From an uncultured beta proteobacterium (lineage in GTDB: Bacteria; Pseudomonadota; Gammaproteobacteria; Burkholderiales; Burkholderiaceae_C): a stretch of 36,858 bases of DNA. Below are positions 721 to 24,831 of this stretch, one piece after another. The stretch lies in NCBI GenBank assembly GCA_903822205.1, contig CAIJOK010000061.1, positions 1 to 36,858 on the forward strand. The letters are read 5' to 3'. The notes below the pieces were generated by a model. It ran no database searches and was not told the origin of the DNA. It saw nothing but the letters and a program-made list of their open reading frames with translations. Position numbers and translations under genes: made by a program. The first letter of the stretch is position 1; every line of letters starts with the position of its first letter.

Positions 721-2898
721 ATGAAAAAACTCATGCTATCCACCTGGTTACCCGCCATCAGGCGCTGGTTGGCATCGCCCGTTTTTGACGGTGATCCGGT
801 AAAAACAAGGCAGGCTGGCCTGCTCAATGTCTATGTCAATTTCAGCTTTTTGCTTACCTTGTTGTGCATGCTTGGCATTGTGTTGGGGCATAACGCGCCA
901 CGCAGCGCACTGAGCCTTGCCATGGTTTGGTTCGTTGTGCTTTTTCTGTTGCGTCACATGTTGCACCACGGCAAGGTAGCTTGGGTGACGTTCTGTGTGA
1001 CGGTCCCATTTTTTATCCTGATCACAGCAGTGAACATCAGTCTGGGAACCATCCGAACACCCACTGCCGGGACCTATCTGTTTTGGATGATCCTGATCGG
1101 GCTTTTGTTTCAATGGCCTGGCATTGTGATGTCCACTGTGGCCAGCTCGCTGGCCATTCTGGGGCTGATCGCAGCAGAAAACGCCGGCCTGCTACCCCAG
1201 GCAAATTTCAGCGTTGGCATCACCCAATGGATCGTTTCTTCGTCCGTGTTTGCCATGACAGGAGGCTTGGTGTACCACATCAACCGGATCACAAACAACG
1301 CGCTGTTGTGTGCCGGGCATGAAATTGAACAACGCAGACATACAGAAGAAAAACTACGCTTAAGCCGCGATGAGTGGAAACGCACTTTTGACGCGATGGC
1401 CGACCTGATTTTCATCATTGATGACCAGCATCACATTCTCAGGATGAACAAGGCTGCAAGCACTGCCCTGGGCATGTCCGAAGACCAAGCCAAATCTATC
1501 CCGTGCTACGTCTGTATGCATGGGACAGACCATCCCCCTGAGAACTGTCCGCATGTCAAAACTGTCCAGGACCACGATACCCATCAGGTGGATGTTCTGG
1601 TGGAGCGTCTGGGTCATCGTTATCAGGTCACAACAACACCCATTCTGAACGCCGATGGCCAATACGAAGCCACCGTGCATGTCGCTCATGATATTTCTGA
1701 ACGGATGCACCACGAACAGGAACTTGAAAAAGCCCGACAAGCAGCCGATGCCGCCAACCATGCCAAATCAGAATTTCTGGCCACGATGAGCCATGAACTG
1801 CGCACACCGATGAATGGCGTTTTGGGTATGGCGCAATTGCTCATCAAGCCTGAAATTCAGAATGACAAACGCATTCAATACGCACAGACCATTTTGAGTT
1901 CTGGCCACACGCTGTTGTCGCTGCTCAACGACATTTTGGACCTGTCCAAAGTAGAGGCTGGCAAACTTAATCTGGAGTCGATCGGTTTTGCCGTTGAACA
2001 GGTCGTGGGTGACATTTGCGCCCTGTTTGCCGAAACTGCCAACGCCAAAGGGCTGCAACTGACATCCGACTGGCGGGGGCCGACAGGGCCGTGCTATCTG
2101 GGTGACCCCTACCGGCTGCGTCAGATGCTCTCCAACCTGGTGGGCAATGCCATCAAATTCACCGATCACGGCTTTGTTTGCGTCTTGGTCACAGAACTTG
2201 AACGCCATTCGCAGCACGCTGTGCTCGAGTTTTCGGTTTCAGACAGCGGCAAGGGCATCACCGATGAGCAGCGGGCACGTTTGTTTCAACCTTTTAGCCA
2301 GGCCGACAGTTCAACCACCCGCCAATTTGGCGGGTCTGGCTTGGGGCTGTCTATCGTTTCACGGTTAGCGCGACTGATGGGCGGTGAGGTGGGCATTGAC
2401 AGCCAACCCGGCCAAGGGGCGCGTTTTTGGTTTCGAGTTCGCGTTGATCTCCAGCCTGACACGCTTGTGTCACCAGAAACCACGGCGGCCTCAGAGGCTA
2501 TGCCAGTCGAGGATTTGACAGGAACCGTGCTGATTGCCGAGGACAACCCCGTGAACCGGATGGTCATCATGGCGATGTTGGACGATCTGAATTGTTCGGG
2601 CTTGACGGTCGTGATCGCAGAAGACGGCTTGCAGGCGCTTGACCACATCACCCAGGGTGGCACGCCTGATCTTGTGCTGATGGACGTTCAAATGCCCATC
2701 ATGGACGGTTTGACAGCGACTGCGCACATCCGTTTGTGGCAAGCTGATCACGGCATACCGCACCTGCCCATCATTGCCTTGACGGCCAGTGCCTTTGAAG
2801 AAGACGGGCAAAAGTGTCTGGATGCCGGCATGGATGGTTTTCTGGTCAAACCCCTGGGCATCAAGAAACTTCAGGACACGCTGACCTGTTGGCTTTAA
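721..2898 (+). CDS. Membrane hybrid sensor histidine kinase (6TM-PAS-HisKA-HATPase-REC)
   Basis: This 725-residue protein should autophosphorylate on a histidine and pass the phosphate to its own receiver. Residues 35-190 hold about six hydrophobic helices forming a membrane input module, shared with the kinase at 10162. A PAS domain follows (about 215-328). It has an unusual cysteine cluster, CYVCMHG at 262-268 plus Cys276, also present in the kinase at 22348. The HisKA box is MSHELRTP with His358. The ATPase has N-box Asn476, DSGKGI (G1) and GGSGLGL (G2). The receiver has acidic Glu607/Asp608, phospho-acceptor Asp655 and Lys710. There is no HPt domain. The leader CAAGTTGAT...GCCAATG is repeated before the kinases at 2978 and 10162. 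No good Shine-Dalgarno is visible. The signal sensed is unknown. Confidence 0.93.
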   Translation: MKKLMLSTWLPAIRRWLASPVFDGDPVKTRQAGLLNVYVNFSFLLTLLCMLGIVLGHNAPRSALSLAMVWFVVLFLLRHMLHHGKVAWVTFCVTVPFFILITAVNISLGTIRTPTAGTYLFWMILIGLLFQWPGIVMSTVASSLAILGLIAAENAGLLPQANFSVGITQWIVSSSVFAMTGGLVYHINRITNNALLCAGHEIEQRRHTEEKLRLSRDEWKRTFDAMADLIFIIDDQHHILRMNKAASTALGMSEDQAKSIPCYVCMHGTDHPPENCPHVKTVQDHDTHQVDVLVERLGHRYQVTTTPILNADGQYEATVHVAHDISERMHHEQELEKARQAADAANHAKSEFLATMSHELRTPMNGVLGMAQLLIKPEIQNDKRIQYAQTILSSGHTLLSLLNDILDLSKVEAGKLNLESIGFAVEQVVGDICALFAETANAKGLQLTSDWRGPTGPCYLGDPYRLRQMLSNLVGNAIKFTDHGFVCVLVTELERHSQHAVLEFSVSDSGKGITDEQRARLFQPFSQADSSTTRQFGGSGLGLSIVSRLARLMGGEVGIDSQPGQGARFWFRVRVDLQPDTLVSPETTAASEAMPVEDLTGTVLIAEDNPVNRMVIMAMLDDLNCSGLTVVIAEDGLQALDHITQGGTPDLVLMDVQMPIMDGLTATAHIRLWQADHGIPHLPIIALTASAFEEDGQKCLDAGMDGFLVKPLGIKKLQDTLTCWL

Positions 2899-2931
2899 CG
2901 CATGTGCCATGCTGATGCATCACACACAACA

Positions 2932-2958
2932 GTCAATCGAGTCAATCGAGTCAATCGA
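2932..2958 (+). repeat. Triple 9-bp tandem repeat in a kinase leader
   Basis: GTCAATCGA occurs three times head to tail (2932, 2941, 2950), directly upstream of the ribosome binding site GGAG and the ATG at 2978. The first kinase leader has a single copy at 692-700 followed by nearly the same bases, so the repeat expanded after the leader was duplicated. Confidence 0.9.
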
Positions 2959-2977
2959 CAAATTGATGGAGTAGCCG

Positions 2978-5509
2978 ATGAAAAATTGCATTCAAGTGAC
3001 CTGGATACCCGCCATCAAACGCCGACTACAGGGGGTATTACAGGATGTGACCGAGATCATGCACAGCCACAAGCATGTGGCTAAGAACAAACTGCGGCTG
3101 CAAGAGGTGCTGGACATCGTCCAAGAGGCCGTGTGGGATTGGCATGTGCCGTCCGGTTGCGTGTTGCATAACCTGCAGTGGTATGAACTGCTGGGTTTGC
3201 AACCCGGTGAAATTGCCGATACGGTGGACGCGTTTGCTGCACTGATTCATCCTGACGACGCGCCTGTCGTGCGGCAACGTATTGAAGCCTTACAGAGCGG
3301 CAAGACAGTGGCCTACCAGTCCGAGCACAGGATGGTGGGACGACAAGGCACGATTTGGGTGCAAGACAGGGGTGGTGTGGTTGAACGAGACAAACAGGGC
3401 CACCCTGTTCGCGTGGTTGGCAGTTTTATTGACATCACCGAACGCAAATTGGCACAAATGGAACTGCAAAACTACCGCAATCATCTTGAGGAACTGGTGC
3501 AGATTCAAAACGTGGAATTGCAACAGGCTTTTGATGAATTGACGGTCTCTGAAACGAAATACCGAACGCTGATTGAAACCACGGGAACGGGCTATTTGAT
3601 CCTCGACTTGAATGGCTGTGTACTGGATGCCAACCCCGAATATGTGCGCCTATCCGGACACCAGGAACTCAAAGATATTCTGGGCCGATCGGTTCTACAG
3701 TGGACCGCTGACCACGAGAAAGTGAAAAACAAAAATGCCATAGCGCAATGCATCAAAGATGGTTTTATCCGGAATTTAGTTGTCGATTATGTGGACAAGT
3801 GCGGCCACATCACCCCCGTCGAGATCAATGCAACCGTTGTGACGGTGGGCGATTCACCGCTATTCGTATCGCTCTGCCGCGACATTTCTGAGCGCAAAAG
3901 GATGGAAGACACCTTGAAGGACAGTCACGAACGTTGGCAATTTGCACTGGAAGGGTCAGGCGATGGCGTTTGGGACTGGAATATTCAGACCGGTAAGGCA
4001 CAGTTTTCCAAAGTCTGGAAGGCAATGCTGGGCTTTACCGACGCTGAAATTGGCGACGATGCAACCGAATGGAGCAGCCGTGTTCACGCCGACGATTTGC
4101 CCAGGGTCATGAAAACCATTCAGGCACACCTGGACGGCAAGACACATTCTGTTGCCTGTGATTTCCGCATATTGTGCAAGAACGGAAGCTACAAATACAT
4201 GTTTGGTCGCGGCATGGTGGTCAGCCGCAGTGACGACGGGAGACCGGTACGGCTGGTCGGAACACAAACCGATATCACCGAACGAAAGAACCTTGAAAAT
4301 CAGGCCAATTTTGCCAACCGTGCCAAGTCAGAATTTTTGGCCACGATGAGCCATGAACTTCGCACACCGATGAACGGTATTTTGGGCATGGCGCAGTTGC
4401 TCGTCAAACCTGTCATTGCGGATGACCAGCGCATTCAATTCGCGAAAACCATTTTGAGTTCGGGTCACACCCTGTTGTCACTGCTCAACGACATTTTGGA
4501 CCTGTCCAAGGTCGAGGCGGGCAAACTTAAATTGGAGTCGATGACGTTTGCGGCTGACACCCTTGTGCGTGACGTTCATGCCCTGTTTGCCGAAGCCGCC
4601 AACGCCAAAGGGCTGCAACTGACATTTGACTGGCACGGGCCGGCAGGGGCCTGTTACCTGGGTGACCCCTACCGGTTGCGCCAGATGATCTCCAACCTGG
4701 TCAGCAACGCCGTCAAATTCACTGCCCATGGCTTTGTTTACATAGATGCCAGCGAAGTTAAACGCCATTCGCAGCACGCGGTGCTTGAGTTTTCGGTTTC
4801 AGACAGCGGCATTGGCATCTCATCTGAACAGCGGGAACGTCTGTTTCAGCCCTTTAGCCAGGCCGATCACGCGACCACCCGCCAATATGGCGGCTCTGGT
4901 TTGGGGCTGTCCATCGTTTTGCAACTGGCTAAGCTGATGGGCGGTGAGGTTGGCCTTGACAGCCAACCCGGCCTGGGCACGCGTTTCTGGGTTCGAGTTT
5001 GCGTTGCAACCCAAGCTTTGGTGGATGAGATGCCTCAGGCCGTCTTGGCATCCACCCCAGTGCCGGCCAAGGACTTGACAGGAACGGTGCTGGTTGCCGA
5101 GGACAACCCCGTGAACCGGATGGTCATCATGGCGATGCTGGACGATCTGAATTGTCAGGGCTTGACGGTCACGAACGTTGAAGACGGCCAGCAGGCGCTT
5201 GACCACATCACCCAGGGGGGGACGCCCGACCTGGTGCTGATGGATGTTCAAATGCCCATCATGGACGGTTTGACCGCGACTGAGCTTATCCGTCTGTGGC
5301 AAGCCGATCATGGCAAACCGCGTCTGCCCATTGTTGCCCTGACAGCCAGTGCCTTTGAGGAAAACAGGCAACAATGTCTGGACAGTGGCATGGATGATTT
5401 TCTGGTAAAACCCCTGGACATCCAGAAGCTGCAAGCCATGCTGACGCACTGGCTAAGGCCTGATGATTCGGATCAAAACCCCATGAACCCCAACCCTCCA
5501 TCAACATGA
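2978..5509 (+). CDS. Soluble hybrid histidine kinase (PAS-PAS-PAS-HisKA-HATPase-REC)
   Basis: This 843-residue hybrid kinase has no membrane segment and should be cytoplasmic. PAS1 (about 45-156) is of the WDWH...YQSEHRM...VQDRGGV type that also occurs in the kinases at 5506 and 18109. PAS2 (190-308) and PAS3 (315-436) are not found elsewhere in the array. HisKA His459 lies in MSHELRTP, the N-box is Asn577, G1 is DSGIGI and G2 is GGSGLGL. The receiver has Asp756 as acceptor and Lys811. The first 17 residues match the start of the membrane kinases at 721 and 10162, but the next residues (VLQDVTEIMHSH) match the end of a PAS domain found in the kinases at 5506 and 10162. The gene therefore looks like an internal deletion product. 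ATG at 2978 has GGAG six bases upstream. The stop overlaps the next start by four bases (ATGA), indicating coupling. Confidence 0.93.
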   Translation: MKNCIQVTWIPAIKRRLQGVLQDVTEIMHSHKHVAKNKLRLQEVLDIVQEAVWDWHVPSGCVLHNLQWYELLGLQPGEIADTVDAFAALIHPDDAPVVRQRIEALQSGKTVAYQSEHRMVGRQGTIWVQDRGGVVERDKQGHPVRVVGSFIDITERKLAQMELQNYRNHLEELVQIQNVELQQAFDELTVSETKYRTLIETTGTGYLILDLNGCVLDANPEYVRLSGHQELKDILGRSVLQWTADHEKVKNKNAIAQCIKDGFIRNLVVDYVDKCGHITPVEINATVVTVGDSPLFVSLCRDISERKRMEDTLKDSHERWQFALEGSGDGVWDWNIQTGKAQFSKVWKAMLGFTDAEIGDDATEWSSRVHADDLPRVMKTIQAHLDGKTHSVACDFRILCKNGSYKYMFGRGMVVSRSDDGRPVRLVGTQTDITERKNLENQANFANRAKSEFLATMSHELRTPMNGILGMAQLLVKPVIADDQRIQFAKTILSSGHTLLSLLNDILDLSKVEAGKLKLESMTFAADTLVRDVHALFAEAANAKGLQLTFDWHGPAGACYLGDPYRLRQMISNLVSNAVKFTAHGFVYIDASEVKRHSQHAVLEFSVSDSGIGISSEQRERLFQPFSQADHATTRQYGGSGLGLSIVLQLAKLMGGEVGLDSQPGLGTRFWVRVCVATQALVDEMPQAVLASTPVPAKDLTGTVLVAEDNPVNRMVIMAMLDDLNCQGLTVTNVEDGQQALDHITQGGTPDLVLMDVQMPIMDGLTATELIRLWQADHGKPRLPIVALTASAFEENRQQCLDSGMDDFLVKPLDIQKLQAMLTHWLRPDDSDQNPMNPNPPST

Positions 5510-8500
5510 ACGAACCCCTTGTGACCTTTCGCGCCCGGGCCTATGCCCTGGTAACTCTTGTCATGCTGGGCATTTTGAGTCTTCAATTGACCCATGCGCC
5601 CAGTTATGCCTGTCCGATTTTTCCGGCAGCCGGTCTGGCGCTGGTCTTGATGCTGATGTCAGGCAACCGGCAGTGGCCATCCGTTTGGGTAGGGGCGCTG
5701 ATCGTTTGCGGGTATGCCACCTACCGCCATGGCAGTGTGGATTGGGGCGATGCACCAGTGCTCCTAGCCACAGCCTGCGGGGTGGTGTTACAGGCCTGGG
5801 CAGGGGCCTGGCTTATTCGGCGCTGGCTGCCTCAGCACTGGCAGCATCTGGAAGGCCAGAGCGAAGTGCTGACGTTTCTGGCTTTGGGCGGGCCGTTAGC
5901 GTGTGTGATCTCGGCCACCGTGGGGGTGATGTCGCTGTATGCGGCAGGCAAAGCACTCGGGGCGGATGTGCCCTGGGTGTGGCTGACGTGGTGGTGTGGC
6001 GACCTCTTGGGTGTGTTGATGTTTGCGCCCTTGACGATGGCGTTTTTCAAGCGTCAAGAGCCATTGTGGCGGGGGCGATTGGGAATGCTGGGCGGGCTGG
6101 TTCTGGTCAGCGTATCAGCAGTGCTGGCGGTTTTTATTCAGCTATCCAAGATGGATCAGGCGAGGTATCGCGAAGAAATTTCCATCCATGCAGAGGTGAT
6201 CAAGCATCACATCGAAATACGCTTGGAAAGCTACAAGGAAATGCTGGAAATGATCGTCCACATGATCGAAGTTTCGCCCAATCTGAGCCGTGAGCAATTT
6301 GAGTATTTCACGTACCAGGCCATCAAGGACGATCCGGATCAGAGGGTGCTGGGTTTCAAGACTTACGTACCCAACGCCGGCTATGCCGCGCTGGGCTTAG
6401 ACGGTTCTTCTGATCCCACGCATGCCGCCGCTATTGCCGATGCCATTGAGCGCACACTTCGCTTTGGCAAACCCACTCTCACCGGCCCCATCGTGCTGAT
6501 GCGAGACCCCAAGGAGGATGCGTTGGTGCTGTACCCGGCCTACCAGCGAAACACAAAAAAGTCCGATTTGGACAAACCGCCCATCCCGCTGGGTTTTATT
6601 GTGAGCACCCTCAAGGTCGCCGAGATGGCAAAGATAGCGCAGACCGCCGTGGGACCGAGCTTTGATCCAGGTGTCGTGTTCACACTCAATGACCCCAAAG
6701 CCTCGCTTGGTCAGCACCTGCTGTTTCAGTCCGATCCTTCCCCACTACCGTCCCGGGTCCATCTGGTCTGGCATGACTCCATCAGCGTCTTTGACCGGAA
6801 CTGGGACATTGTGGTGTATCCAAATCAGCAGTGGCTGGGTGAACACCGCGCATGGACGGCGTGGGTTGTAGGCGCTGCGGGCTTGTTGTTGACCAGTGTG
6901 CTGCAAGTGTTGATTTTGGTCAGTACAGGGAGAACCGCACTGGTTCGCCGCCAAGTGCAGGAGCAGACGATCGAATTACGCGAAACGACCGATGCACTGC
7001 ATGAGCGCAGCCGGCTCATTCGCAACGTGATCGACAACATCGCTGACCCCGTGTTTTTGAAGGATGAACAAGGCACATTCGTCCTGGTCAATGCAGCCCT
7101 GGCACGCTTGTACAACACCCACCCGGCGGCCTTGATCGGCCTGCGTCCCAGCGACCTTAGCACGTCGGTTTCTTTGGCCAGTGGCTTTGTGCGGGGCGAG
7201 CAGTCGGCTCTGTCCAATGGCGAAACGCTGGTCTTTTTTGAGGACATTCAAGACAGCGCAACCGGCAAGGTTCGCCATTACAAATCCACCAAGACCCCCA
7301 TGACGGACCTGCAGGGGCGGCCTCAGGTGCTGGTGGTTGTTCAGGACATGACCGAGATCATGCGCAGCTATCAGCAAGTGGCCCAGAGTGAGCAACGGCT
7401 TCAAGATGTGATGAACATCACCCATGAGGCCATGTGGGACTGGCACATACCAACGGGTCGTGTGCTGCACAACCAGCAATGGTGTGTCACGCTGGGTCTG
7501 CAACCGAGTCAAGTTTCGGACACGGAGGACACGTTTTACGCCTGGATTCACCCGGACGACAAATCTGATGTCATGAAGCGCCTTGATGCCCTGCTGCGGG
7601 GTGAGACAGGCAGCTACCAGTCCGAGCACCGAATGCTGGGCCAGCAGGGCATGATCTGGGTGCAAGACCGTGGTGGCGTGGTTGAACGTGACGAACAGGG
7701 TTGTCCCGTCCGTGTGGTTGGCAGTTTTACAGACATCACGGAGCGACGCAATGCCCAGGACAGGATCACGGACCTGCTGAGTGAGCAGCGCGCCATTTTG
7801 CAAAGCGATGTCGTCGGTTTGCTCATCACGCAAGGCAGCCGGATGCTCTGGGTCACGCCATCTTTGCTGCGCACCTTGGGGTATGACTGGCTGCATGTCG
7901 AGGGCCTGGACATCCGCTTTATGTTTCAGAATGAAGAGGCTTTTTTGAGTTGGGGTGAAGCGGCATACCCTGTGATCCGTGCCTACCAGGTGTTTCGCAC
8001 ATCGCTACAGTTTTGCCACAAGAACGGCACCCTGATTTGGTTTGACCTTGCGGGCACGATGTTTGGCAAGAATTCGGATCAAGTGTTGTGGTCGTGTGTG
8101 GACATCACCGCCCAAAAATCAGCCGAGGCCAAATTGATCGAAGCCCAGCAAGAGGCTTTGGCGGCCACCGCTGCCAAAAGCCAGTTTTTGGCGACGATGA
8201 GCCATGAGGTTCGCACGCCGATGAATGGCATTTTGGGTATGGCGCAGTTGCTCGTCAAGCCTGAGATTCAGGATGAGAAACGCATTCAATACGCTAAAAC
8301 CATTCTCAATGCAGGCCAGACGCTTTTGTCGCTGCTCAACGACATTCTGGACCTGTCCAAAGTCGAGGCCGGCAAACTGAATCTTGAGTCGATTGCCTTT
8401 GCGGTTGACCCCATCGTGAGTGATATTCAAGCCCTGTTTGCCAAACCTGCCCACGCCAAAGGGCTGCAACTGACATCTGACTGGCAGGGACCGGCTGGTA

Positions 8501-9387: not shown

Positions 9388-9429
9388 ACATTTAAAGTAA
9401 AACGCAAATTGACGGGACAGATCACATCC

Positions 9430-10113: not shown

Positions 10114-10161
10114 CAGGTGATCGCAGTGCCACGAATTGCCACAAGTTGATACAAGTTGCCA

Positions 10162-16000: not shown

Positions 16001-17198
16001 TGATCGTGCCACCTTGGCGCGTGATGCAGCCACGATTCTTATCGTGGAAGATGACCCCCATTTTGCGCAAGTGCTGGCCGAACTTTGCCGCGAAAAAAGC
16101 ATGCCGTTTCTGGCTTGCCCGACTGCTGAAGAAGCGCTGGAACTTCTTGCCACGTACCGCGTTGTCGGTGTCTTGCTCGACATGAACTTGCCAGACCATG
16201 AGGGCTTGTTGGTGCTCAACCGAATCAAGGATAAGCTCGAAACACTCCACATTCCTGTCTATGTCATTTCCGTCGAGGAGAGGCGACACCAGGTCTTGCA
16301 TCACGGTGCAATTGGTTTTCTGCAAAAACCGGTATCACCTGAGCAATTGCAAGAAGCCTACACCACCCTCCATGAGGCCAGTGGCAAAAATATCAAAACC
16401 GTCCTGGTGGTTGAAGACGACGTAGCCCTGCGAGCAGCGGTGCGTACACTTTTGGATGCTGACGATGTCAGCCTCCACGAGGCAAGCACTGGCGAACAGG
16501 CGCTGGCGATGATGAGGCAATCGTCGATCGATCTCATCATCCTTGATCTGGGTCTGCCAGACATGAACGGCTTTGAATTTCTTGAACAAGCAGGTGTCAA
16601 GGAAGGTACACAACTGCCGCCAGTCATCGTATTTACAGGGCGCGAATTAAGCCGTGAAGAATACGAACAGTTGCAACGCTACTCTGCTCAGGTTGTCATC
16701 AAAGGCGTGCGCTCAGATGAACGATTGGTGAACGAGGTGGCGCTCTTTTTGCACCGTCGGGTGGCCACTTTGCCTGACAGGGCGCAGAAGATGCTGGCCA
16801 TGCTGCATGATCGCGATGCCTTGTTTACCGGCAAAAAGGTCTTGCTGGTGGATGACGACATTCGCAACATTTTTTCACTCTCGGGCCTATTGGAAGAGCG
16901 TGGCTTCAAAGTCATCACCGCCAAAAATGGGCAGGATGCCTTGGACAAGTTGGCTCTGCACCCAACTCTGGACGTGCTGCTGACCGATATCATGATGCCG
17001 GTGATGGATGGCTACGAGCTTATCCGGCAAGTGCGAAGGCAGGAGCGACACGCACGATTGCCAATTCTGGCTTTGACCGCCAAAGCGATGAAAGGTGACC
17101 GTGATCGTTGCATGGAAGCAGGTGCCTCAGATTACTTGAGCAAGCCGGTTGACACCGATCGACTGTTATCGACCCTGCGCGTTTGGCTGTACCGCTGA
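13083..17198 (+). CDS. HAMP-GAF hybrid histidine kinase with three receivers
   Basis: This 1371-residue kinase is of a different lineage from its neighbours. The N-terminus has a membrane helix (about 12-32), a helical periplasmic domain (33-200) resembling chemoreceptor four-helix sensors, and a second helix (203-225). HAMP-like segments (about 226-410) and a GAF domain (425-575) follow. A Gln/Glu-rich coiled coil (585-670) contains the repeated phrase QQ(S/T)NEELEEQ. HisKA has His688 in MSHELRTP; the ATPase has DSGIGI and GGTGLGL. After a low-complexity linker come three receivers with acceptors Asp1033, Asp1155 and Asp1302. The protein can integrate membrane and cytoplasmic signals and route phosphate through several receivers. 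Its stop overlaps the cheR start (TGATG). ATG-ATG at 13083/13086 are alternative starts, and no Shine-Dalgarno is visible. Confidence 0.93.
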   Translation: MMFNISSLRGKLYLAFVAILFISTISLSVGLGRMASLNDRLMEIVSQTAPKVWLTKDIQRQLMALRNNEKNVLLSEGQDQLDLAQERGKKLETELESLEGQISQLVVSKEGKASLKIYSEQVERYLAVRHQVIDLAKEAVALSSSGSQVTGVEVNARALRLSQDKGLLPLDAAASALEALSEQNVAWMNASKAAATAEYDSARTVLIGLLILKLSLGLAVAYGLTRTLLGRVQAVTFRSEQIVLGKFDVQEDPAVDELTVISRSHASVMRVMRDLIEQTRQVAQASRTGDLSKRMNTANLKGDWMALGRGINTVIEELLKPGYAQTRLLLEMAEGHLTARITDEFKGDLHRVNQASNQLAKNSQCAINAFDELMASFAAGKLEGRARVDDHLGDWRKIMVGLNSILANVHHAAQEREAQSWVKTGLSGLAQQMLGDLTLTDMAGQIMTYLAHYVDAHVGALYVWSEGERVLHQVGSYAYEQSATVPTRFALGEGLVGQAALQKQAISVTDLPQNFVRVTSGMGAALPKNCLVIPLLYEGKIKGVIELGSLHDFDPLTLEMLHAAGSSVATALNTAEANTRTRTLLQRTQEQAAQLQLQQEELQQSNEELEEQAQNLKLSEERLKAQQIKLQQTNEELEEQTRMLESQSAAVARTNADLEAAKVDLQMQAEALAISSKYKSEFLANMSHELRTPLNAMLILSRSLADNRDGNLNDKQVTAAKVMHQSGNDLLSIINDILDLSKIEAGHEIAEIDDVDLTMVAGQLTALFNTVAEEKGLFFQLEMDAALPSKIRSDRQRLGQILRNLLANAFKFTAQGGVVLKFSLADAHHVAIAVIDSGIGIPQDKQGHVWEAFQQADGSINREFGGTGLGLSISRELAKLLGAKIDLISKTGEGSTFTLCLPIDGPPHEPDQPGAKITEAANDRQRQSGQSRHISHISHLRMPETASRKILAASHSSLHTGVKKTKAVERIADDRATLARDAATILIVEDDPHFAQVLAELCREKSMPFLACPTAEEALELLATYRVVGVLLDMNLPDHEGLLVLNRIKDKLETLHIPVYVISVEERRHQVLHHGAIGFLQKPVSPEQLQEAYTTLHEASGKNIKTVLVVEDDVALRAAVRTLLDADDVSLHEASTGEQALAMMRQSSIDLIILDLGLPDMNGFEFLEQAGVKEGTQLPPVIVFTGRELSREEYEQLQRYSAQVVIKGVRSDERLVNEVALFLHRRVATLPDRAQKMLAMLHDRDALFTGKKVLLVDDDIRNIFSLSGLLEERGFKVITAKNGQDALDKLALHPTLDVLLTDIMMPVMDGYELIRQVRRQERHARLPILALTAKAMKGDRDRCMEAGASDYLSKPVDTDRLLSTLRVWLYR

Positions 17199-18112
17199 TG
17201 TGTGAATTAAAGGTCAGTGCAACACAGGACACCACCTTGGTGGAAGACCTGGAAATTACCTTGCTGCTTTCTGCACTAGAGCAGCGATGGGGCTATGATT
17301 TTCGTGACTACGCCCGGGAATCCGTCAAGCGACGTATTCGTGCAGCGATGATTCGCCACGGTGCGGCCCACGTCAGCGAACTGATTCCAAGGATGCTTTA
17401 CGACGGGGAGTTTTGCTTAGATATCGTGCAAGGCTTTTCTGTGCCGGTGACTGAAATGTTTCGTGATCCAGAGGTTTGGAAAGCTTTGCGTGATCATGTC
17501 TTTCCGATGCTGCGTACGTGGCCCTATTTCAAAATTTGGCACGCGGGCTGTGCAACGGGTGAGGAAGTTTATTCCTTGGCCATCCTGCTTTTTGAAGCCG
17601 GTTTGCTGGAAAGAGCCACCCTCTACGCCACCGACTTTAATGAGACGGTGTTGCAGCAAGCCCGTGAGGGGGTTTTTGACATCAAGCACACGCAAGTTGC
17701 CAGCCGCAACTACTTTCAGGCTGGCGGCTTGCACTCGCTCAATGCCTATTACCACGCCCAAGACCATCTGGTTCAAGTAAACAGCACCTTGCGCAAGGCC
17801 GTCGTATGGGCCAACCATAACCTGGTGGCCGACAGCGTGTTTGGCGAGATGAACCTGATCTTGTGCCGCAATGTTTTGATTTATTTCAGCCAAGCCTTGC
17901 AGAACCGCACTTTGGAACTGTTGACTTCCAGTTTGTCACCGGGTGGTTACTTGTGCTTGGGTACCAAAGAGACACTTGACTTTACCAGCGTCGGTCATTG
18001 CTATGAGCTTATTGCGCCCACGGAGCGCATTTATCGCTGTGTCCACGGCGAGATGATCGATACCCCAGATAGCGGCACATTCACCATCAACCCTCCACCA
18101 CTCACCGCATGA
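17198..18112 (+). CDS. cheR: CheR-type protein-glutamate methyltransferase
   Basis: This 304-residue enzyme transfers methyl groups from S-adenosylmethionine to glutamates, normally of chemoreceptors. An N-terminal helical domain (RESVKRRI) precedes TEMFRDP and the cofactor site HAGCATGEEVYS. NLILCRNVLIYF and GGYLCLGTKE are further family signatures. No TPR or receiver is fused to it. The ATG at 17198 overlaps the kinase stop and is preferred to a TTG at 17183. Its 3' end overlaps the next kinase start by four bases (ATGA). No chemoreceptor, CheA, CheW or CheB is present in the window. In this setting its substrate may be the receptor-like region or coiled coil of the 13083 kinase, which is my inference, or receptors encoded elsewhere. 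Confidence 0.9.
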   Translation: MCELKVSATQDTTLVEDLEITLLLSALEQRWGYDFRDYARESVKRRIRAAMIRHGAAHVSELIPRMLYDGEFCLDIVQGFSVPVTEMFRDPEVWKALRDHVFPMLRTWPYFKIWHAGCATGEEVYSLAILLFEAGLLERATLYATDFNETVLQQAREGVFDIKHTQVASRNYFQAGGLHSLNAYYHAQDHLVQVNSTLRKAVVWANHNLVADSVFGEMNLILCRNVLIYFSQALQNRTLELLTSSLSPGGYLCLGTKETLDFTSVGHCYELIAPTERIYRCVHGEMIDTPDSGTFTINPPPLTA

Positions 18113-21100
18113 ATCACTCTCAACCCTCCATCTTCCATCGTACGATTCACGCGAAACCATCGAATGTTCATCGTACACATCACGCTAAAGCCTGCAACAC
18201 CCATGGCATGAATCACTCAACCGGTTGCAAAATCCTGGTCGTTGACGATGTAGATGCCAATCTGTTGGCCATTGAGTCGGTACTTGCCGATATTGACGCT
18301 GAACTGCTTCTTGCTAACAGTGGTGAAGCCGCACTGGAACTGTTGATGCGTGAAACGGAGGTGCCGGCCCTGGCCTTGATCGACGTTCAAATGCCGGGCA
18401 TTGACGGTTATGAATTGGCACGACTGATCCGAGGGAATGTGCGCTTGCAGCATGTACCGATCATCTTTCTTTCGGCTATCTTTCGGGATGCTACGCATAT
18501 TTTTACGGGGTACGAAAGTGGCGCAGTCGATTACATCACCAAGCCCTTTAGTTCGGCGGTATTGCAAGCCAAGGCAAAGATATTTCTTGATTTGCACCAC
18601 TATCGACGTGCAGCGGTACAGGCAGAAATTAGCAAACGCGAGGCAGTTGCCAAGAGCGAAGAGCGTTTGAATGCCGTCATGCAAATCACGCGGGAGGCCA
18701 TCTGGGACTGGCACATACCGTCTGGTCACATGGTGCATAACCTGCAGTGGTATGAAACCCTGGGTTTGCAACCCAGTGCCATCCAGGATACGGTGGACGC
18801 GTTTGTCGCTTTGATTTACCCCGACGACAAACCTGAAGTGATGCAGCGCATGGATGCCCTGCTGCGGGGGGAGACCGATAGCTACCAGTCCGAGCACCGG
18901 ATGCTGGGCAAACATGGCATGGTCTGGGTTCAAGACAGGGGTGGCGTGGTTGAACGTGACGAACAGGGTCATCCCCTTCGTGTGGTCGGCAGTTTTACCG
19001 ACATCACCGAACGTCATATCAACCAAGACAGGATCACTGCTTTGTTGGGTGAACAACAAACGCTGCTGCAAAGGTATTACGAGAGCAGCCGGCTGGTTCG
19101 CAACGTGATCGACAACATCGCAGACCCCGTGTTTCTCAAGGACGAACAAGGCAAATTTGTCCTGGTCAATATGGCATTGGCACGCATGTATAACACCACG
19201 CCTTCAGCCATGATTGGCTTGCGTGCAAGCGACCTGGGTGTGTCGGTCACTTTGGCTGACGGCTTTTTTCAAGGTGAGCGGGCTGCTTTGTTAAATGGCG
19301 AAACGCTTGTTGTTTTTGAAGACATGCAAGATTCGGTTTCCGGCAAGATTCGACATTACAAATCTACCAAAACCCCCATGACAGACAGCCACGGGCAGCA
19401 GCAAGTGCTGGTGCTTGTCCAGGACGTGACCGAGATCATTCACAGTCACCAGCAAGTGGTTGAGAGTGAACGGCGGCTTCAAAATGTGCTGAATGTCACA
19501 CGCGAGGCCGTCTGGGATTGGCACATTCCATCTGGCCATGTGGCGCATAACCCGCAATGGTATGAAGTGCTGGGTTTTCAAGCGAGTGATATCGCCGATA
19601 CCCTGGACGCATTTGCTGCGTTGATTCATCCAGACGACAAGCCCGGGGTCATGCAGCGCGTTGATGCCCTACTGCACGGTCAGACTGACAGCTACCAGTC
19701 CGAGCACCGGATGGTGGGCAAACATGACACCCTCTGGGTGCAAGACCGAGGTGGCGTGGTTGAACGTGATGAGCAGGGTCATCCCGTCCGGGTGGTCGGT
19801 AGTTTTTCCGACATCACCGAACGTCGCGTAGCGCAGGACAGGATCACTGCTTTGTTGAGTGAACAACAGGCCATGCTTCAAAGCGATGTCGTCAGTCTTC
19901 TTCTCACGCAAAACAACCTCATTTTCTGGGCCACCCCATCCCTTTTACACGCTTTGGGCTATGACTGGCAAAAGCTTAAAGGGCGCGACATTCGGTTTAT
20001 TTTTCAAAGTGAAGAGACCTTTGGGGTTTTTAGTGAGGCCGCGTATCCTGTGATTCGTGCCCATCAGGTGTTTCGCACGCCAGTCCAATTTCGCCATCAA
20101 AATGGCAGCCTGTGTTGGTTTGACCTCGCAGGTGCGATGTTTGGTGAGCATTCGGATCAAGTGCTTTGGTCTTGCATTGATATTTCTGCCCAAAAAATGG
20201 CCGAGGAAAAATTGATAGCAGCCCAGCAAGAGGCTTTGGCCGCCACCGTTGCCAAGAGCCAATTTTTAGCCATGATGAGCCATGAGGTTCGCACACCGAT
20301 GAATGGTGTTCTTGGGATGGCGCAGTTGCTTGTGAAGCCTGAACTGTCTGATGACAAACGCGTGCAATATGCACAAACCATTCTTCGTTCAGGCCACTCC
20401 TTGCTGACATTGCTCAACGACATTCTTGACTTGTCCAAAGTGGAGGCCGGCAAGTTGAAACTCGAATCGATTGCCTTTGCAGTTGATTCGGTCGTGGGTG
20501 ACATTCGTTCCCTGTTTGCCACAGTTGCCGGAGCCCAGGGGTTGCAATTTCAGTCTGTCTGGGAGGGGCCAACAGACACACGTTATTTGGGTGACCCCTA
20601 TCGGCTGCGCCAGATGCTCTCTAATCTGATTAACAATGCCATCAAGTTCACCGATCACGGCTTTGTGAGCATGGTGGTGCGAGAAATTGAACGCCATTCC
20701 CAGCATGCGGTGCTTGAGTTTTCGGTGTCAGACAGCGGTATTGGCATCACGCATGAACAGCAGGCACGGTTATTTAAGCCTTTTAGCCAAGCCGACAGTT
20801 CGACCACCCGCCAGTTTGGCGGAACCGGTCTGGGGCTGTCCATCGTTGCACGGTTGGCGCAACTGATGGAAGGTGAGGTGGGTATTGAAAGCGAACCCGG
20901 CCAGGGGGCGCGTTTTTGGTTTCGAGTGCGCGTTGGTATCCAAGCGCAAGAGTCATCAGAAACCACGGTGACATCAGAGGCTGTGCCTGCTGGAAACTTG
21001 ACGGGAACGGTGCTGATTGCCGAGGACAACGCGGTCAACCGGATGGTCATCACGGCGATGCTGGATGAATTGAATTATTCGGGCGTGACGGTCACGATGG

Positions 21101-21393
21101 CCGAAGACGGCCAGCAGGCGCTTGACTACATTACCCGGGGTGGTGCGCCCGATCTGGTGCTGATGGATGTTCATATGCCCATCATGGACGGTCTGGCAGC
21201 GACCCAGCACATCCGTTTATGGCAAGCCGATCACGGCAAATCACCCGTGACAATTGTCGCCTTGACGGCCAGTGCTTTTGAGGAAGACAGGCAAAAGTGT
21301 CAGGACAGCGGCATGGATGATTTTCTGGTCAAGCCTCTGGATATCCAAAAACTGCAAACCACGTTGGGGCGCTGGCTCAAGGTCAGCGTTTAA
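18109..21393 (+). CDS. REC-4xPAS-HisKA-HATPase-REC hybrid kinase
   Basis: This 1094-residue soluble kinase begins with a receiver (about 40-160; DD at 46-47, acceptor Asp92, Lys145), so it can receive phosphate from another kinase, most simply the one two genes upstream. Four PAS domains follow. The first (190-305) and third (460-575) are near copies of the WDWH...YQSEHRM type. The second (325-445) is the RHYKSTKTPM type, and the fourth (585-695) is the WFDLAGAMFG type. His725 lies in MSHEVRTP, G2 is GGTGLGL and the terminal receiver acceptor is Asp1020. The annotated ATG overlaps the cheR stop. A second ATG at 18208 is preceded and followed by nearly the same bases and would remove a His-rich, repetitive 33-residue leader. 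Either start may be used. Confidence 0.92.
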   Translation: MNHSQPSIFHRTIHAKPSNVHRTHHAKACNTHGMNHSTGCKILVVDDVDANLLAIESVLADIDAELLLANSGEAALELLMRETEVPALALIDVQMPGIDGYELARLIRGNVRLQHVPIIFLSAIFRDATHIFTGYESGAVDYITKPFSSAVLQAKAKIFLDLHHYRRAAVQAEISKREAVAKSEERLNAVMQITREAIWDWHIPSGHMVHNLQWYETLGLQPSAIQDTVDAFVALIYPDDKPEVMQRMDALLRGETDSYQSEHRMLGKHGMVWVQDRGGVVERDEQGHPLRVVGSFTDITERHINQDRITALLGEQQTLLQRYYESSRLVRNVIDNIADPVFLKDEQGKFVLVNMALARMYNTTPSAMIGLRASDLGVSVTLADGFFQGERAALLNGETLVVFEDMQDSVSGKIRHYKSTKTPMTDSHGQQQVLVLVQDVTEIIHSHQQVVESERRLQNVLNVTREAVWDWHIPSGHVAHNPQWYEVLGFQASDIADTLDAFAALIHPDDKPGVMQRVDALLHGQTDSYQSEHRMVGKHDTLWVQDRGGVVERDEQGHPVRVVGSFSDITERRVAQDRITALLSEQQAMLQSDVVSLLLTQNNLIFWATPSLLHALGYDWQKLKGRDIRFIFQSEETFGVFSEAAYPVIRAHQVFRTPVQFRHQNGSLCWFDLAGAMFGEHSDQVLWSCIDISAQKMAEEKLIAAQQEALAATVAKSQFLAMMSHEVRTPMNGVLGMAQLLVKPELSDDKRVQYAQTILRSGHSLLTLLNDILDLSKVEAGKLKLESIAFAVDSVVGDIRSLFATVAGAQGLQFQSVWEGPTDTRYLGDPYRLRQMLSNLINNAIKFTDHGFVSMVVREIERHSQHAVLEFSVSDSGIGITHEQQARLFKPFSQADSSTTRQFGGTGLGLSIVARLAQLMEGEVGIESEPGQGARFWFRVRVGIQAQESSETTVTSEAVPAGNLTGTVLIAEDNAVNRMVITAMLDELNYSGVTVTMAEDGQQALDYITRGGAPDLVLMDVHMPIMDGLAATQHIRLWQADHGKSPVTIVALTASAFEEDRQKCQDSGMDDFLVKPLDIQKLQTTLGRWLKVSV

Positions 21394-21445: not shown

Positions 21446-21473
21446 TTGAATCGCACCAGACATTGGGTATGCA
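21446..21473 (+). promoter_or_regulatory. Weak promoter candidate for the solute-binding protein
   Basis: TTGAAT (21446-21451) and TATGCA (21468-21473) are 16 bases apart in the 119-base gap before the solute-binding protein gene. The match is moderate. The gap and the shift to AT-rich sequence suggest that the gene starts a new transcript rather than continuing the kinase operon. Confidence 0.25.
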
Positions 21474-21512
21474 GGGGCTAAACGGTTACTTTTGTGATTA
21501 AAGAAGGGTTTT

Positions 21513-22277
21513 ATGAAAATAGGAACATTTTTAGGCATCGTATTTTTTTTACTGGCTGCACCGGCATGGTCGCAGCCCATCATAACCATGGGCAGCGATG
21601 AATGGCTGCCATACGTAGGCACTCAAAAAGATCGCGGTTATATGATTGAAGTCGCGGATGCGATATTTGAAAAGCGGGGTATTAAAATACAAATCAATTC
21701 TTATCCCTGGCCACGTATTCTGCATATGGTAAGAAAAGGAAGCCTGAATGCCGCACCAGGCATGCAAAAAAATCAGGCCCCCGATTTTATCATACCCGAT
21801 GAACCGCTTGGAATTGATGAGGCCGCATTTTTTGTACCTAAGTCAGACCCATGGCAATACAAAGGCATTGAATCTTTGAATGTAAAAAAGATGGGTGTGA
21901 TCAAAGATTATACCTATGAGAAAGAGATTGACATTTATATTGCCAACAATTTTGGGGACAACAAAAGAATACATGTCGCCCATGGGGATGACCCTTACAA
22001 ACAAATGGTCAAATTGTTTCAGGCAAAACGTATTGATTTAATTGTCGCCAACCCGAATGTTTTTCTTTACAAGCTTTCTGTCATGGGGGTAAACAGCAGC
22101 GATTATAAAATGATACCGATACCAAACAGCACCCATTATGTTTACATTGGGTTTTCCCCAGCGATACAGCAGTCAGGGGAATATGCCAAGATACTCTCAA
22201 CAGGGATCATGGAGATGCGAAAAAATGGCCAGTTGGAAAGCCTGTTAAAAAAATACAGGATCAAGGACTGGAAGTGA
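21513..22277 (+). CDS. Periplasmic solute-binding protein, SBP_bac_3-like
   Basis: This 254-residue protein has a clean signal peptide (MKIGTFLGIVFFLLAAPAWS) with cleavage expected near residue 20. The mature part begins with the family pattern GSDEWLPYVG and GYMIEVADAIFEKRG, then NSYPWPRILHMVRKG and a central segment running into IIPDEPLG. This fits the bilobal type 3 (amino-acid or polar-compound) binding proteins. No permease or ATPase gene is nearby, so it is unlikely to serve an ABC transporter here. A membrane kinase starts 70 bases downstream in the same direction, and the pair could work as a binding-protein sensor. The ribosome binding site GAAGG lies just ahead of the ATG. The gene is visibly AT-richer than the kinases around it, a sign of recent acquisition. 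Confidence 0.85.
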   Translation: MKIGTFLGIVFFLLAAPAWSQPIITMGSDEWLPYVGTQKDRGYMIEVADAIFEKRGIKIQINSYPWPRILHMVRKGSLNAAPGMQKNQAPDFIIPDEPLGIDEAAFFVPKSDPWQYKGIESLNVKKMGVIKDYTYEKEIDIYIANNFGDNKRIHVAHGDDPYKQMVKLFQAKRIDLIVANPNVFLYKLSVMGVNSSDYKMIPIPNSTHYVYIGFSPAIQQSGEYAKILSTGIMEMRKNGQLESLLKKYRIKDWK

Positions 22278-22347
22278 TTTGCAATACGCGAATTCATAAT
22301 TATTTAACGCTACCATATTCTCTGCCATATCTCATTTAATATGATGA

Positions 22348-24831
22348 ATGATAATGAATTTTAATAAAACATCCATTGCACTGACCGTCACAATGACCAT
22401 CGTGATGGTTGTCACTTTGCTGCTTGGCGCAGTCGGAGTTTATGTTTACAAAATGCAGAGCTTGAACCAGTGGCGTGACCTGCATTCCACACTGAACCTC
22501 AGTGCTGACCAGCTTGCAACGGCGCTTACCTTGCCCGCATGGAACATGGATGAGGCCCAGATTGACCGCAACATGCAGGGGGTGATGCTCAATTCTGACA
22601 TCTATGGTGTCATATTTCGAGCGGAAGGTGACGTTAATTCACACGTGATTTCTTTGGTCAGAGGGGAACAGTGGGAAATAAAAAAATCTGACGGAGTTTT
22701 TGCGGTATCGGGCCTCATTGCTGTGGAACGAGTCATCATTTATGCGCATCAACAGATCGGTACGCTGCAATTGTTTTCTACCCCCAAGTTTGTCCAGGCT
22801 GACCTGCGCAAGGTTCTTCTCTGGAATATCCTCTCTGTGATTGCGCTGGATATTTTTATCATTCTTTCGCTGTATCTGGTTCTTTGGCGTATTGTCCTCA
22901 AACCACTTAAAAATATCGAACATTACGCCCTTGAGATTATCAGTCATTCTGATGTTCAAGATCAGATGCTCCACAACGCAAGCTTTCGGGGTGAGCTTGA
23001 TACCGTACGCAAGGCCATTGCGCGAATGGTTGAGCTTCTGTCTGCAAGATACCGAGAGCTTTGTGACAATCAATCTAAACTGGAAGAAGAGATTGATGAG
23101 CGCAGGACAGCACAGGAGGCTCTTGCGGTCAATCAGCAAAAACTAGAACGACTGAACAATGAACTTGAACAGCGGGTGCTGGACCGTACCAGCCAGATGC
23201 AAACTGCCAATCTTGAACTATTAGAGGCACGAGATGCCGCCATCCGCGAAATATCAGAACGCTGGCGTATAGAGACAGCGTTACGCAAAAGTCGCGATGA
23301 GTGGGAACGTACCTTTGATGCCATGGAGGACTTGATTTTCATTCTCGATGACAAGCACAATATTCTCAGGATGAACAGGGCTGCGACCCACGCCCTTGGA
23401 ATCTCCGAAGAACAAGCTAAATCAGACCCCTGCTATCTCTGTATGCATGGTACAAACAAACCCCCAGAGTGCTGTCCCTACGTACTCAGTTTGAAGGACC
23501 ACGAAACACATCAGGTGGATGTTTTTATGGAGCGTCTCGGTCGTTATTATCAAGTGACAACCATACCCATGATCGATTCCGATGGCCACTACGAAGCGAC
23601 TGTGCATGTAGCGCATGACATTTCTGAACGGATATGTCATGAGCGTGAGCTTCAAGAAGCCAGACAAACCGCCGATGCCGCTAACCGCGCAAAAAGTGAC
23701 TTTCTCTCAAGCATGAGCCATGAGGTTCGCACACCATTGAATGGCATTCTGGGCATGGCGCAGTTGCTCGTCAAGCCTGACATTCAGGTTGACCGGCGCT
23801 TGCAATATGCGCAAACCATTTTGAACTCTGGCCACACGCTGTTGTCGCTGCTCAACGACATTTTGGATCTGTCCAAAGTGGAGGCTGGCAAACTCAAACT
23901 GGAGTCCATTGCCTTTGCGGTTGCCCCCATCGTGAGTGACATTCATGCTTTGTTTGCCGAAACTGCTGATGCCAAAGGGCTGCAACTGGCATCCGACGGG
24001 CGGGTTCCGGTGGGGCCATGCTATCTGGGTGACCCCCATCGACTGCGTCAGATGCTCACGAATTTGGTCAGCAATGCCATCAAATTTACCGCTAACGGCT
24101 TTGTTCGTGTGGTGGTCACTGAGATTGAACGCCAATCCCAGCAGGCTGTGCTTGAGTTTTCGGTTTCAGACAGCGGCATTGGCATCACCTCTGAGCAGCA
24201 GGCGCGTCTGTTTCAGCCTTTTAGTCAGGCCGACAGTTCGACCACCCGACGATTTGGTGGAACCGGTCTGGGACTGTCCATCGTTTCACGGCTGGCGCAA
24301 TTGATGGGGGGGGAGGTTGGCATTGACAGCGAACCCGGCCAGGGCGCACGTTTGTGGTTTCGTGTCTGCGTGGGTCTGGCTGTTCAAACACAGGAGCAGG
24401 ATTTGCCTCAGACCTCTGCGTCATCACGTGCTGTGACGGCCCATCATTTGAAAGGAACGGTGCTGATAGCCGAAGACAATTTTGTCAACCGGACGGTCAT
24501 CATGGCCATGCTGGACGAACTGAATTGTTTGGGATTGACGGTGGTGACCGTTGAAGACGGCGGGCAGGCGCTTGACTACATCACCCAGGGGTATGTGCCC
24601 AACCTGGTGCTGATGGACGTTCAGATGCCGGTGATGGACGGTCTCGTAGCGACCAAGCACATCCGTTTTTGGCAGGCCCAGAACGGCAAACCACACCTGC
24701 CTATCGTTGCCCTGACGGCCAATGCCTTTGAGGAAGACAGGCAGCAGTGCTTAGCCGCCGGCATGGATGATTTTTTGGTCAAACCCCTAGACGTTGCCAA
24801 GTTGCAAGCCGTGCTGACGCGCTGGTTATAG
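22348..24831 (+). CDS. Membrane hybrid kinase with periplasmic loop and Cys-rich PAS
   Basis: This 827-residue kinase has a membrane helix (about 10-34), a periplasmic domain (35-155; [15 protein letters not shown]) and a second helix (157-180). A HAMP-like stretch and coiled coil (185-315) come next. PAS (about 315-428) carries CYLCMHG at 362-368 and Cys375/Cys376, matching the PAS of the 721 kinase. His458 lies in MSHEVRTP, G1 is DSGIGI, G2 is GGTGLGL and the receiver acceptor is Asp757. The first third is AT-rich like the binding-protein gene before it, whereas from the PAS/HisKA region on it resembles the other array kinases. This suggests a chimera. The start may be 22348 or the ATG at 22354. 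An eight-G run lies at 24306-24313 in the ATPase coding region. Confidence 0.9.

Follow-up and report, generated by a model that had tools for sequence, protein, structure and literature searches.

Within the window, the whole stretch of 36,858 nucleotides that we analysed, the interval 721-24831 encodes seven hybrid histidine kinases (K1 to K7). They were delineated from open reading frames and Pfam profiles, with HisKA, HATPase_c and a C-terminal Response_reg domain above cut-off in all seven. All features of this interval given below with coordinates lie on the plus strand. K1 (721..2898) combines a 6TM module and a Cys PAS with a kinase core that recurs in five of the other kinases, K2 (2978..5509) carries a WDWH PAS, a PASx and a PAS_3 module before this core, and K3 (5506..9309) has the order MASE1-CHASE-RHYKS-WDWH-DLAG-core. 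An M50B-like peptidase gene (9409..10113) is located between K3 and K4 (10156..12759), the latter being organized as 6TM-RHYKS-DLAG-core. K5 (13083..17198), with 4HB_MCP-HAMP-GAF-HisKA-HATPase and three REC domains, has a core of a different class. A CheR methyltransferase gene (17183..18112) overlaps both K5 and K6 (18109..21393), which reads REC-WDWH-RHYKS-WDWH-DLAG-core. Finally, a stand-alone gene for a family 3 solute-binding protein (21513..22277) precedes K7 (22348..24831), in which an N-terminal region without Pfam match is followed by a Cys PAS and the common core. We considered that this gene and K7 might be a split kinase resembling K11, which is encoded on contig C16; the idea was dropped because the gene product gave no match to the K11 solute-binding domain at 1e-3. 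In a comparison of 28 proteins, the N-terminal parts of K7, K9 and K11 had no relatives.

A kinase core common to otherwise unlike kinases

The HisKA-HATPase-REC core shared by K1 (1738..2895), K2 (4298..5455), K3 (8149..9306), K4 (11560..12717), K6 (20227..21378) and K7 (23668..24828) is 70-78% identical in amino acids over the 15 pairs, and the core-spanning stretches of the six kinases are 76-82% identical in nucleotides (blastn). The K5 core is unrelated (31-40% amino acid identity to the shared core). An earlier note on this DNA had described six kinases with one core in 24 kb, which is borne out for the six, while the interval holds a seventh kinase. The core family also extends past this interval, with ten members in the genome, of which four are found on three other contigs. 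The ten family cores are 72-81% identical to that of K3, compared to 59% for the next best core in the genome. The end of contig C55 has an exact 141-base overlap with the end of the window contig, and if C55 abuts the window, a single strand would hold eight of the ten family cores in about 47 kb.

Across the ten aligned cores H19 of the MSHE motif, D316 of LMDV and K371 of KPL are invariant; we take these to be the phospho-acceptor histidine and the conserved receiver aspartate and lysine. Mean pairwise identity amounts to 80-84% in the DHp region, 75% in the catalytic domain, 77% in REC and 77% in REC helix 1, so REC helix 1 does not stand out in conservation. The core has a sharp boundary. 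In ungapped comparisons, pairs with unlike inputs are 0-30% identical 21-40 residues before the phospho-acceptor histidine and 62-95% identical at most 10 residues from it. The median dN/dS is 0.23 in the cores, compared to values of up to 0.85 in 6TM paralogues.

Input modules are reused and differ by single PAS domains

The module counts given in the earlier note were all correct. The 6TM module occurs in K1 (721..1320) and K4 (10162..10755); it has no Pfam match, and the K1 copy is 56% identical in amino acids to that of K4 and 61% to that of K8, which is encoded on C55. The Cys PAS is present in K1 (1354..1728) and K7 (23281..23655) with 71% identity. The WDWH PAS is found once in K2 (3077..3457), once in K3 (7381..7773) and twice in K6 (18634..19026 and 19456..19848), where the first copy including its linker is 81% identical in nucleotides to the second over 388 nt. 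K3, K4 and K6 each contain an RHYKS PAS (6973..7380, 10765..11160 and 19060..19452) as well as a DLAG PAS (7774..8130, 11173..11544 and 19849..20208), and the nearest relative of the K3 DLAG PAS is that of K4 (82% amino acid identity). Overall, the reused modules are 54-82% identical in amino acids, far above chance (blastp). Further input regions are the MASE1 and CHASE sensor region of K3 (5506..6945), the N-terminal REC of K6 (18226..18588), and PASx (3545..3907) and PAS_3 (3914..4288) of K2. PASx is 79-81% identical to a PAS of the kinase on contig C118, and PAS_3 about 36% identical to the WDWH modules.

Counterparts of K3 and K4 with like architecture are present in both G104 and G106, two close genomes of the same genus, so that part of the diversity is older than this species. 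Module gain and loss, for which the earlier note had looked to close relatives, is visible here: K4 lacks a WDWH PAS, while its counterparts in G104 and G106 carry one between RHYKS and DLAG. Nucleotide identity between K3 and K4 climbs to 92% at the end of RHYKS and is 95% from the start of DLAG, i.e. on both flanks of the WDWH PAS that is missing in K4.

Module trees contradict one another and the core tree

The earlier note had proposed separate trees for the core and the PAS modules. Our RHYKS tree comprises 13 of 14 rows (the partial G104_MASE row was excluded), the DLAG tree all nine rows, and the core tree 18 of 22 rows, leaving aside C38, C118, G024a and G024c as members of other subfamilies; G104_6TM, which covers 46% of the core columns, is possibly identical to the gene listed as G104_up. 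In the RHYKS tree one group (99/97) unites K4, K8 and the G106 and G104 6TM kinases, and another (100/99) K3, K6, G106 and G104. Pairing K3 with K4 in this tree is rejected (lnL 104 lower, AU p 1.9e-59). In the DLAG tree, by contrast, K3 and K4 form a starred pair (100/99), as K8 and C38 pair with 100/99, and a clade of the 6TM class is rejected (AU test, p 1.3e-69). The core tree rejects both the 6TM class (p 4.5e-5) and the MASE class (p 8.7e-4) in AU tests. Thus, the core and PAS trees disagree, and the exchange of modules that the earlier note had suggested is strongly supported by these conflicts and by a recombinant kinase on contig C38 (below).

The core tree is star-like, with three of its 15 inner branches starred. 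The cores of the window do not form the clade expected of a tandem array, those of K8, K9, K10 and K11 being intermingled with them in the unresolved star. Some cores follow orthology, as the K10 core pairs with its G106 counterpart (100/100). The like-built G104 and G106 counterparts of K3 and K4 have cores that group with neither the K3 nor the K4 core, and the two G106 cores are 85% identical in amino acids to each other, compared to 77-79% to K3 and, for K4, 78% (6TM) and 75% (MASE).

These data bear on the view that core likeness stems from a recent radiation alone, with no homogenisation between cores. The star-like tree and the PHI test on third positions (p 0.24) are consistent with it. 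On the other hand, inputs of the K3 and K4 kind predate the split of G104 and G106, yet the cores do not sort by assembly; the mutual likeness of the two G106 cores points the same way, as do Sawyer's SSQ (0/500) and PHI on all sites (p 0.001). We regard radiation alone as possible but doubtful. Fine-scale conversion inside the cores has at most moderate support; in the test within cores one pairwise run reaches 7/500 globally.

Whole-gene tandem duplication followed by module loss, with no exchange between kinases, would account for the same-strand series of six kinases, which are spaced by -16 to 323 nt, for the internal WDWH duplicate of K6, and for K4 and K8, which resemble deletion forms of a 6TM-RHYKS-WDWH-DLAG kinase retained in G104 and G106. 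It is at odds with the conflicting module trees, with the scatter of cores over other contigs, and with K2 and the C118 kinase, which match in WDWH (69%) and PASx (79%) but have cores of 42% identity; the recombinant kinase on contig C38 (below) argues further against it. We therefore consider this explanation improbable. The tandem duplication invoked in the earlier note is, in its pure form, too simple, with four of the ten cores elsewhere, a star-shaped core tree and no window clade; given eight of ten cores in about 47 kb if C55 abuts, local duplication may nevertheless have contributed.

A recombinant kinase and decoupling of input and core beyond the window

The kinase on contig C38 matches K8 in its 6TM module (85% amino acid identity) and DLAG PAS (83%), but its core is only 53% identical to that of K8 and 79% identical to the core of the C142 kinase. 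The switch occurs at most about 30 nt from the MSHE codons (H-box). Judged from its sequence, the C38 kinase is a recombinant that changes over at the phospho-acceptor H-box from a K8-like input half to a C142-like core, which belongs to another family. Relatives of both parents are present in the same genome. The H-box is not the sole island of similar DNA, as a second one at positions +135 to +180 is 76-92% alike between both core families. Contig C38 starts within its own kinase gene, the genome being a draft of 146 contigs.

Assembly chimeras in this metagenome-derived draft could in principle create apparent shuffling, all the more with 146 contigs and with contig ends falling within repeats or a kinase. 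However, the window comes from a single contig, in which the overlapping frames are intact, and G106 has the same K3-like architecture on a contig of its own. In addition, the modules common to C38 and K8 differ by 10-12% in nucleotides, hence a simple misjoin of existing copies cannot yield C38. An assembly artefact is hardly credible as the source of the pattern.

We compared input and core partners for 43 of the 92 HisKA matches in the genome, i.e. those in fetched stretches with 130 residues upstream; here "core" denotes the kinase part without REC. Eighteen of the 20 kinases with an input paralogue of at least 55% identity have a different best core partner. A core paralogue of at least 65% exists for 34 of the 43 kinases, and the input is common with that partner in only three and differs in 31. 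One pair retains both halves. In the control relative G064 (30 kinases from 31 stretches), two of four testable kinases have different best input and core partners. Selection for both samples relied mostly on resemblance to the K3 core or on adjacency to kinases with such resemblance. Within these samples the decoupling of input and core is a feature that reaches beyond the window.

A lineage-restricted family

Among 60 relatives scanned, no full-length core exceeded 58% identity. Cores of at least 73% were found only in G104 and G106 (73-79%), and G101 has 63%. Among the matches listed in a scan of named genomes the best core match was 58%, in a betaproteobacterial metagenome-assembled genome. 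Distant single orthologues, which the earlier note had set against its own reading, were seen neither among the 60 relatives nor among the matches listed for named genomes, in line with the restriction of cores of at least 73% to G104 and G106. By these identities the family is a lineage-specific expansion, its copies being nearer to each other than to the kinases of most relatives, with G104, G106 and G101 as exceptions.

Repeated horizontal transfer of ready-made kinases could take the place of shuffling at home. The cited passages of PMC4618731 trace the hybrid kinases of Azospirillum chiefly to transfer, and our named-genome scan, covering only the matches listed, leaves room for unseen donors. 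Given that the nearest core and module relatives come for the most part from this genome itself or from G104 and G106, and that relatives of both C38 parents occur in this genome, we consider transfer very improbable. Taken together, it is highly probable that this is a lineage-restricted hybrid histidine kinase family whose input and catalytic halves have recombined among themselves within a single genome.

Proposed mechanism and known systems

Histidine kinases are built of separable sensor and catalytic halves, which engineers join close to where the DHp helix begins. For the natural kinases described here, comparison shows that inputs are assembled from one pool of modules, in which single PAS modules have been lost, gained and duplicated. 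Stretches of near-identical DNA in otherwise unrelated kinases, chiefly the H-box codons and PAS linkers, would be preferred sites of crossover. Joining the halves at the beginning of the DHp helix would keep the signalling helix in register and might allow new inputs to work at once. A more far-reaching and tentative extension, which we think rather less likely to be right than wrong, is a standing combinatorial assembly in which H-box codons and PAS linkers act as recombination islands, inputs are exchanged within and between core families, the cores undergo partial homogenisation and the membrane sensors evolve rapidly. New sensors would then feed an output that stays as it is, and the network would be rewired without new partner specificity.

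In 2006, Alm, Huang and Arkin reportedly described lineage-specific histidine kinase expansion accompanied by domain shuffling. The kind of event is already known, and the present one is an unusually dense and well-resolved case. Recognisable relatives of both chimera parents in one genome are part of what sets it apart. One genome and its close relatives show the natural products: individual PAS modules that some kinases have and others lack, a changeover at the H-box, and a ten-copy core with differing inputs. This provides an unusually clear natural example of new bacterial sensors built from reused pieces on one signalling core, and makes the DNA-level route of sensor exchange and a possible shared output wiring of duplicated hybrid kinases testable.

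Lineage-specific expansion with shuffling is summarised in PMC4618731; in the passages cited, recent kinase duplicates likewise have an input unlike that of the closest paralogue, whereas here the shuffled blocks, a recombinant whose parents both have relatives in one genome, and the crossover site are resolved. Dechloromonas aromatica, as covered in part of PMC2907700, is similarly kinase-rich with recent kinase duplication without adjacent response regulators, but recent paralogues are typically far apart there, compared to eight of ten probably within about 47 kb here. Myxobacteria also have many kinases, whose input domains have been gained and lost; the cited section of PMC4603909 describes domain shuffling as rare and favours loss and subsequent gain over direct protein-to-protein shuffling, while the C38 and K3/K4 results support direct exchange.

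Phosphorelay partners and output

A profile search gave 36 Hpt matches in the genome and none in the window. Two of the 36 are in short open reading frames, at C5:126-443 (at the contig start, perhaps a fragment) and on C104 (254 amino acids, also with a REC match). A dedicated Hpt partner was sought among these matches, and none could be named. No output regulator was found in the window with Pfam.

The single phosphorelay proposed in the earlier note is at most plausible, the cores being similar enough for a common partner. Each kinase would sense its own cue via its input, autophosphorylate and pass the phosphate to its C-terminal REC. As the cores are nearly alike, their partners would probably be identical or overlap, and might be reached directly or via Hpt domains of other hybrids. 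Such shared wiring of duplicates would stand against the usual expectation of pathway insulation. The Pseudomonas GacS multikinase network is comparable in that related hybrid kinases have similar transmitter and receiver domains, which, according to the excerpted part of PMC8175716, can cross-talk and converge on a common output; interactions there were tested with chimeras, while the shuffling here is natural.

Genes for c-di-GMP enzymes (REC-GGDEF, REC-HD-GYP and PAS-EAL-REC) lie beside three related kinases outside the window. This suggests a c-di-GMP output for the related kinases, and the kinases described here might act at least partly on these enzymes. One of the three neighbourhoods adjoins the B-core chimera.

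The kinase array and its core family

The interval 721-24831 on the plus strand of contig C61, which is the entire window, carries seven hybrid kinases (K1-K7) interspersed with genes for an M50B peptidase, CheR and a solute-binding protein, and the intergenic gaps from K1 to YhaV range from -16 to 323 nt. The earlier note had described six kinases with a common core; these six indeed share a HisKA-HATPase-REC core at 70-78% amino acid identity, but the interval also holds K5 (13083-17198), with a core unrelated to the others. Module comparison of the window kinases bore out every one of the note's module counts.

Ten cores in the draft genome (3.05 Mb) match that of K3 at 72% or more: six in the window, two on contig C55 (K8 and K9), one on C67 (K10) and one on C16 (K11), the next best reaching 59%. 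Full-length matches reach at most 58% in 60 relatives (36 from the same genus and 24 from the same order), and partial ones covering the first 236 residues reach 62-63%. When seven genomes were searched in a second round, one of which belonged to both sets, the core subfamily was located in G106 (79, 77 and 73%, plus a partial match of 75%) and G104 (79% and two partials), and a relative of 63% in G101. The 6TM kinase of G106 is followed by what looks like a decayed member of the array (L155:12896-14866): a 6TM fragment of 279 aa and an A-type core fragment of 357 aa that starts past the H-box.

Over their first 141 bases the window and C55 are exact reverse complements of each other, up to the ends of both contigs. 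The overlap falls in a dispersed, possibly REP-like repeat (1-141); of its 33 matches in the genome, several differ in orientation, and only C55 and the window match over all 141 bases. If the two contigs truly join here, the strand of K1 also carries K9 and K8 upstream of it, placing eight of the ten cores within about 47 kb.

The genome has 92 HisKA matches. Its density of first-look candidates per Mb (98 in 3.05 Mb) is the highest of 90 same-genus genomes searched, in a rough ranking with up to about 59 matches counted per genome and the sizes of relatives rounded. Further dense clusters lie on C113 (L036; five HisKA matches in about 14 kb) and C82 (L040; four in about 7 kb).

Conflicting trees of input modules and core

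The inputs ahead of the shared core comprise a 6TM region and Cys PAS (K1), three PAS (K2), MASE1-CHASE and three PAS (K3), 6TM and two PAS (K4 and K8), REC and four PAS (K6), an N-terminal region of no assigned domain and Cys PAS (K7), a region without Pfam match (K9), REC alone (K10) and a solute-binding domain (K11). Immediately before K9 stands an alpha/beta hydrolase gene (L031:12612-13451), an arrangement reminiscent of RsbQ with its PAS partner.

Separate module and core trees, the check proposed in the earlier note, were built on codon alignments and conflict. The RHYKS tree unites K4 and K8 with the 6TM kinases of G104 and G106 (support 99/97), and K3 and K6 with the MASE kinases of the same genomes (100/99), and rejects K3+K4 (lnL 104 lower, AU p 1.9e-59). 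The DLAG tree instead groups K3+K4 and K8+C38 (both 100/99) and rejects the 6TM class (p 1.3e-69); p values of this size lie beyond the resolving power of resampling, and the differences in likelihood are more reliable. The core tree is star-like, with 3 of 15 inner branches supported, rejecting both the 6TM (p 4.5e-5) and MASE classes (p 8.7e-4). An exception to this conflict is the K10 core, which pairs with its like-built G106 counterpart (100/100).

Between K3 and K4, most nucleotide windows of RHYKS are 38-70% identical, with an increase to 92% where the module ends; DLAG is 87-95% identical in its first half and then drops to 73-82%. These high-identity tracts flank the WDWH PAS, which K3 has and K4 lacks; K4 and K8 have an exact 54-base stretch in common at the RHYKS-DLAG joint. 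Since WDWH occupies this position in the 6TM kinases of both G104 and G106, the difference more likely arose by loss in the K4/K8 line. The RHYKS-WDWH pair recurs at about 45-52% in other same-genus genomes, and the K6 PAS region has some match in 71 of 90 genomes (E 1e-20).

A recombinant kinase with its breakpoint at the H-box

Input modules of the family are also present on other cores. The C118 kinase has WDWH and PASx (69% and 79% to those of K2, respectively) ahead of a core 42% identical, with a terminal Hpt; that of C38 has 6TM (85% to K8) and DLAG (83%) ahead of a core 53% identical to that of K8. C38 tracks K8 (67-93% per 30 aa) to about residue 250 and thereafter C142 (mostly 57-97%), the changeover lying no more than about 30 nt from the MSHE codons. 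Two C142 kinases match the C38 core at 79% and 74%, and one kinase in each of G104 and G106 does so at 77-78%. In an ungapped comparison, in which register may be lost at later positions, particularly against C118, the two core families are 82-84% identical over the 45 nt from the MSHE codon onward (36-68% before, 37-57% just after), with a second island of 76-92% at +135 to +180.

The kinase parts on C69 and C38 are probably one gene, since the contigs overlap exactly by 141 bases within the 6TM region, as do C55 and the window. The C142 kinase sharing the C38 core (1510 aa; L037:9367-12306 region) lies among further clustered kinases, and, going by a sequence motif, its start looks like that of a bacteriophytochrome.

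Decoupling across the genome

A census covered the 43 own kinases with enough sequence, out of the 92 HisKA matches. An input paralogue of at least 55% exists for 20 of the 43, the best core partner being a different kinase in 18; a core paralogue of at least 65% exists for 34, the same partner sharing the input in three. Applied to 30 kinases of G064, whose genome belongs to the same genus, is rich in kinases and comparable in size, this measure gives nine with a core paralogue (input shared in four) and four with an input paralogue (different core partner in two). Expansion and decoupling are both stronger here than in G064, on small control numbers.

According to PMC4618731, which cites an earlier study, more than 70% of recently duplicated kinases have an input unlike that of their closest paralogue; PMC4603909 describes shuffling as rare, with loss plus gain preferred, and PMC8175716 shows promiscuity among related hybrid kinases (further background in PMC2907700 and PMC8895600). 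Judged by titles and abstract openings, the literature searched describes neither this cluster nor H-box recombinants that arose naturally, a weak negative. The family is a genuine and clear case of an evolutionary process already known, and an unusually complete one, its strongest new elements being the C38 recombinant and the cross-family decoupling of input and core.

Constraint, activity and output

When the polymorphic sites of the ten cores were permuted, SSQ exceeded 500 of 500 shuffles, and the longest single run was equalled in 7 of 500. PHI gave p 0.001 for the ten cores and 0.003 for the six in the window (third positions alone, p 0.24). Homogenisation among the cores would be a plausible reading of these sequences. 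The median core dN/dS (NG86) is 0.23 over 45 pairs; values for 6TM are 0.65-0.85 among K1, K4 and K8 and 0.26 for K4 against its G106 counterpart, and for CHASE 0.59 (K3 against G106). Fast-changing membrane sensors beside a constrained core fit either sensor diversification or relaxed constraint.

The kinases look active, since none of the ten cores departs from the HisKA His or from the REC Asp and Lys. A profile search of the window found neither an Hpt match nor an output regulator; the cores may feed the single phosphorelay that the earlier note proposed. Neighbours of related kinases outside it point to c-di-GMP as one output: a REC-GGDEF gene follows K10 and likewise its G106 counterpart, another overlaps the C38 kinase gene, and REC-HD_5 and PAS-EAL-REC genes lie downstream of K8. 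REC is the first domain of K6 as well as of K10, and each of them is preceded by a kinase of the HAMP/GAF type that has REC domains (K5 for K6, a K5-like one on C67 for K10), which suggests that an upstream kinase gates these two cores.

A PrlF/YhaV toxin-antitoxin pair (24836-25800) starts 4 nt past K7 and overlaps internally by 4 nt, and may therefore be co-transcribed with the array. Close to the contig end, an ORF of 1451 aa (32352-36707) with an Eco57I match and weak MmeI-type matches likely encodes a single-chain restriction-modification enzyme, and the minus strand carries an alpha-type (eukaryotic-type) carbonic anhydrase (30409-31080).
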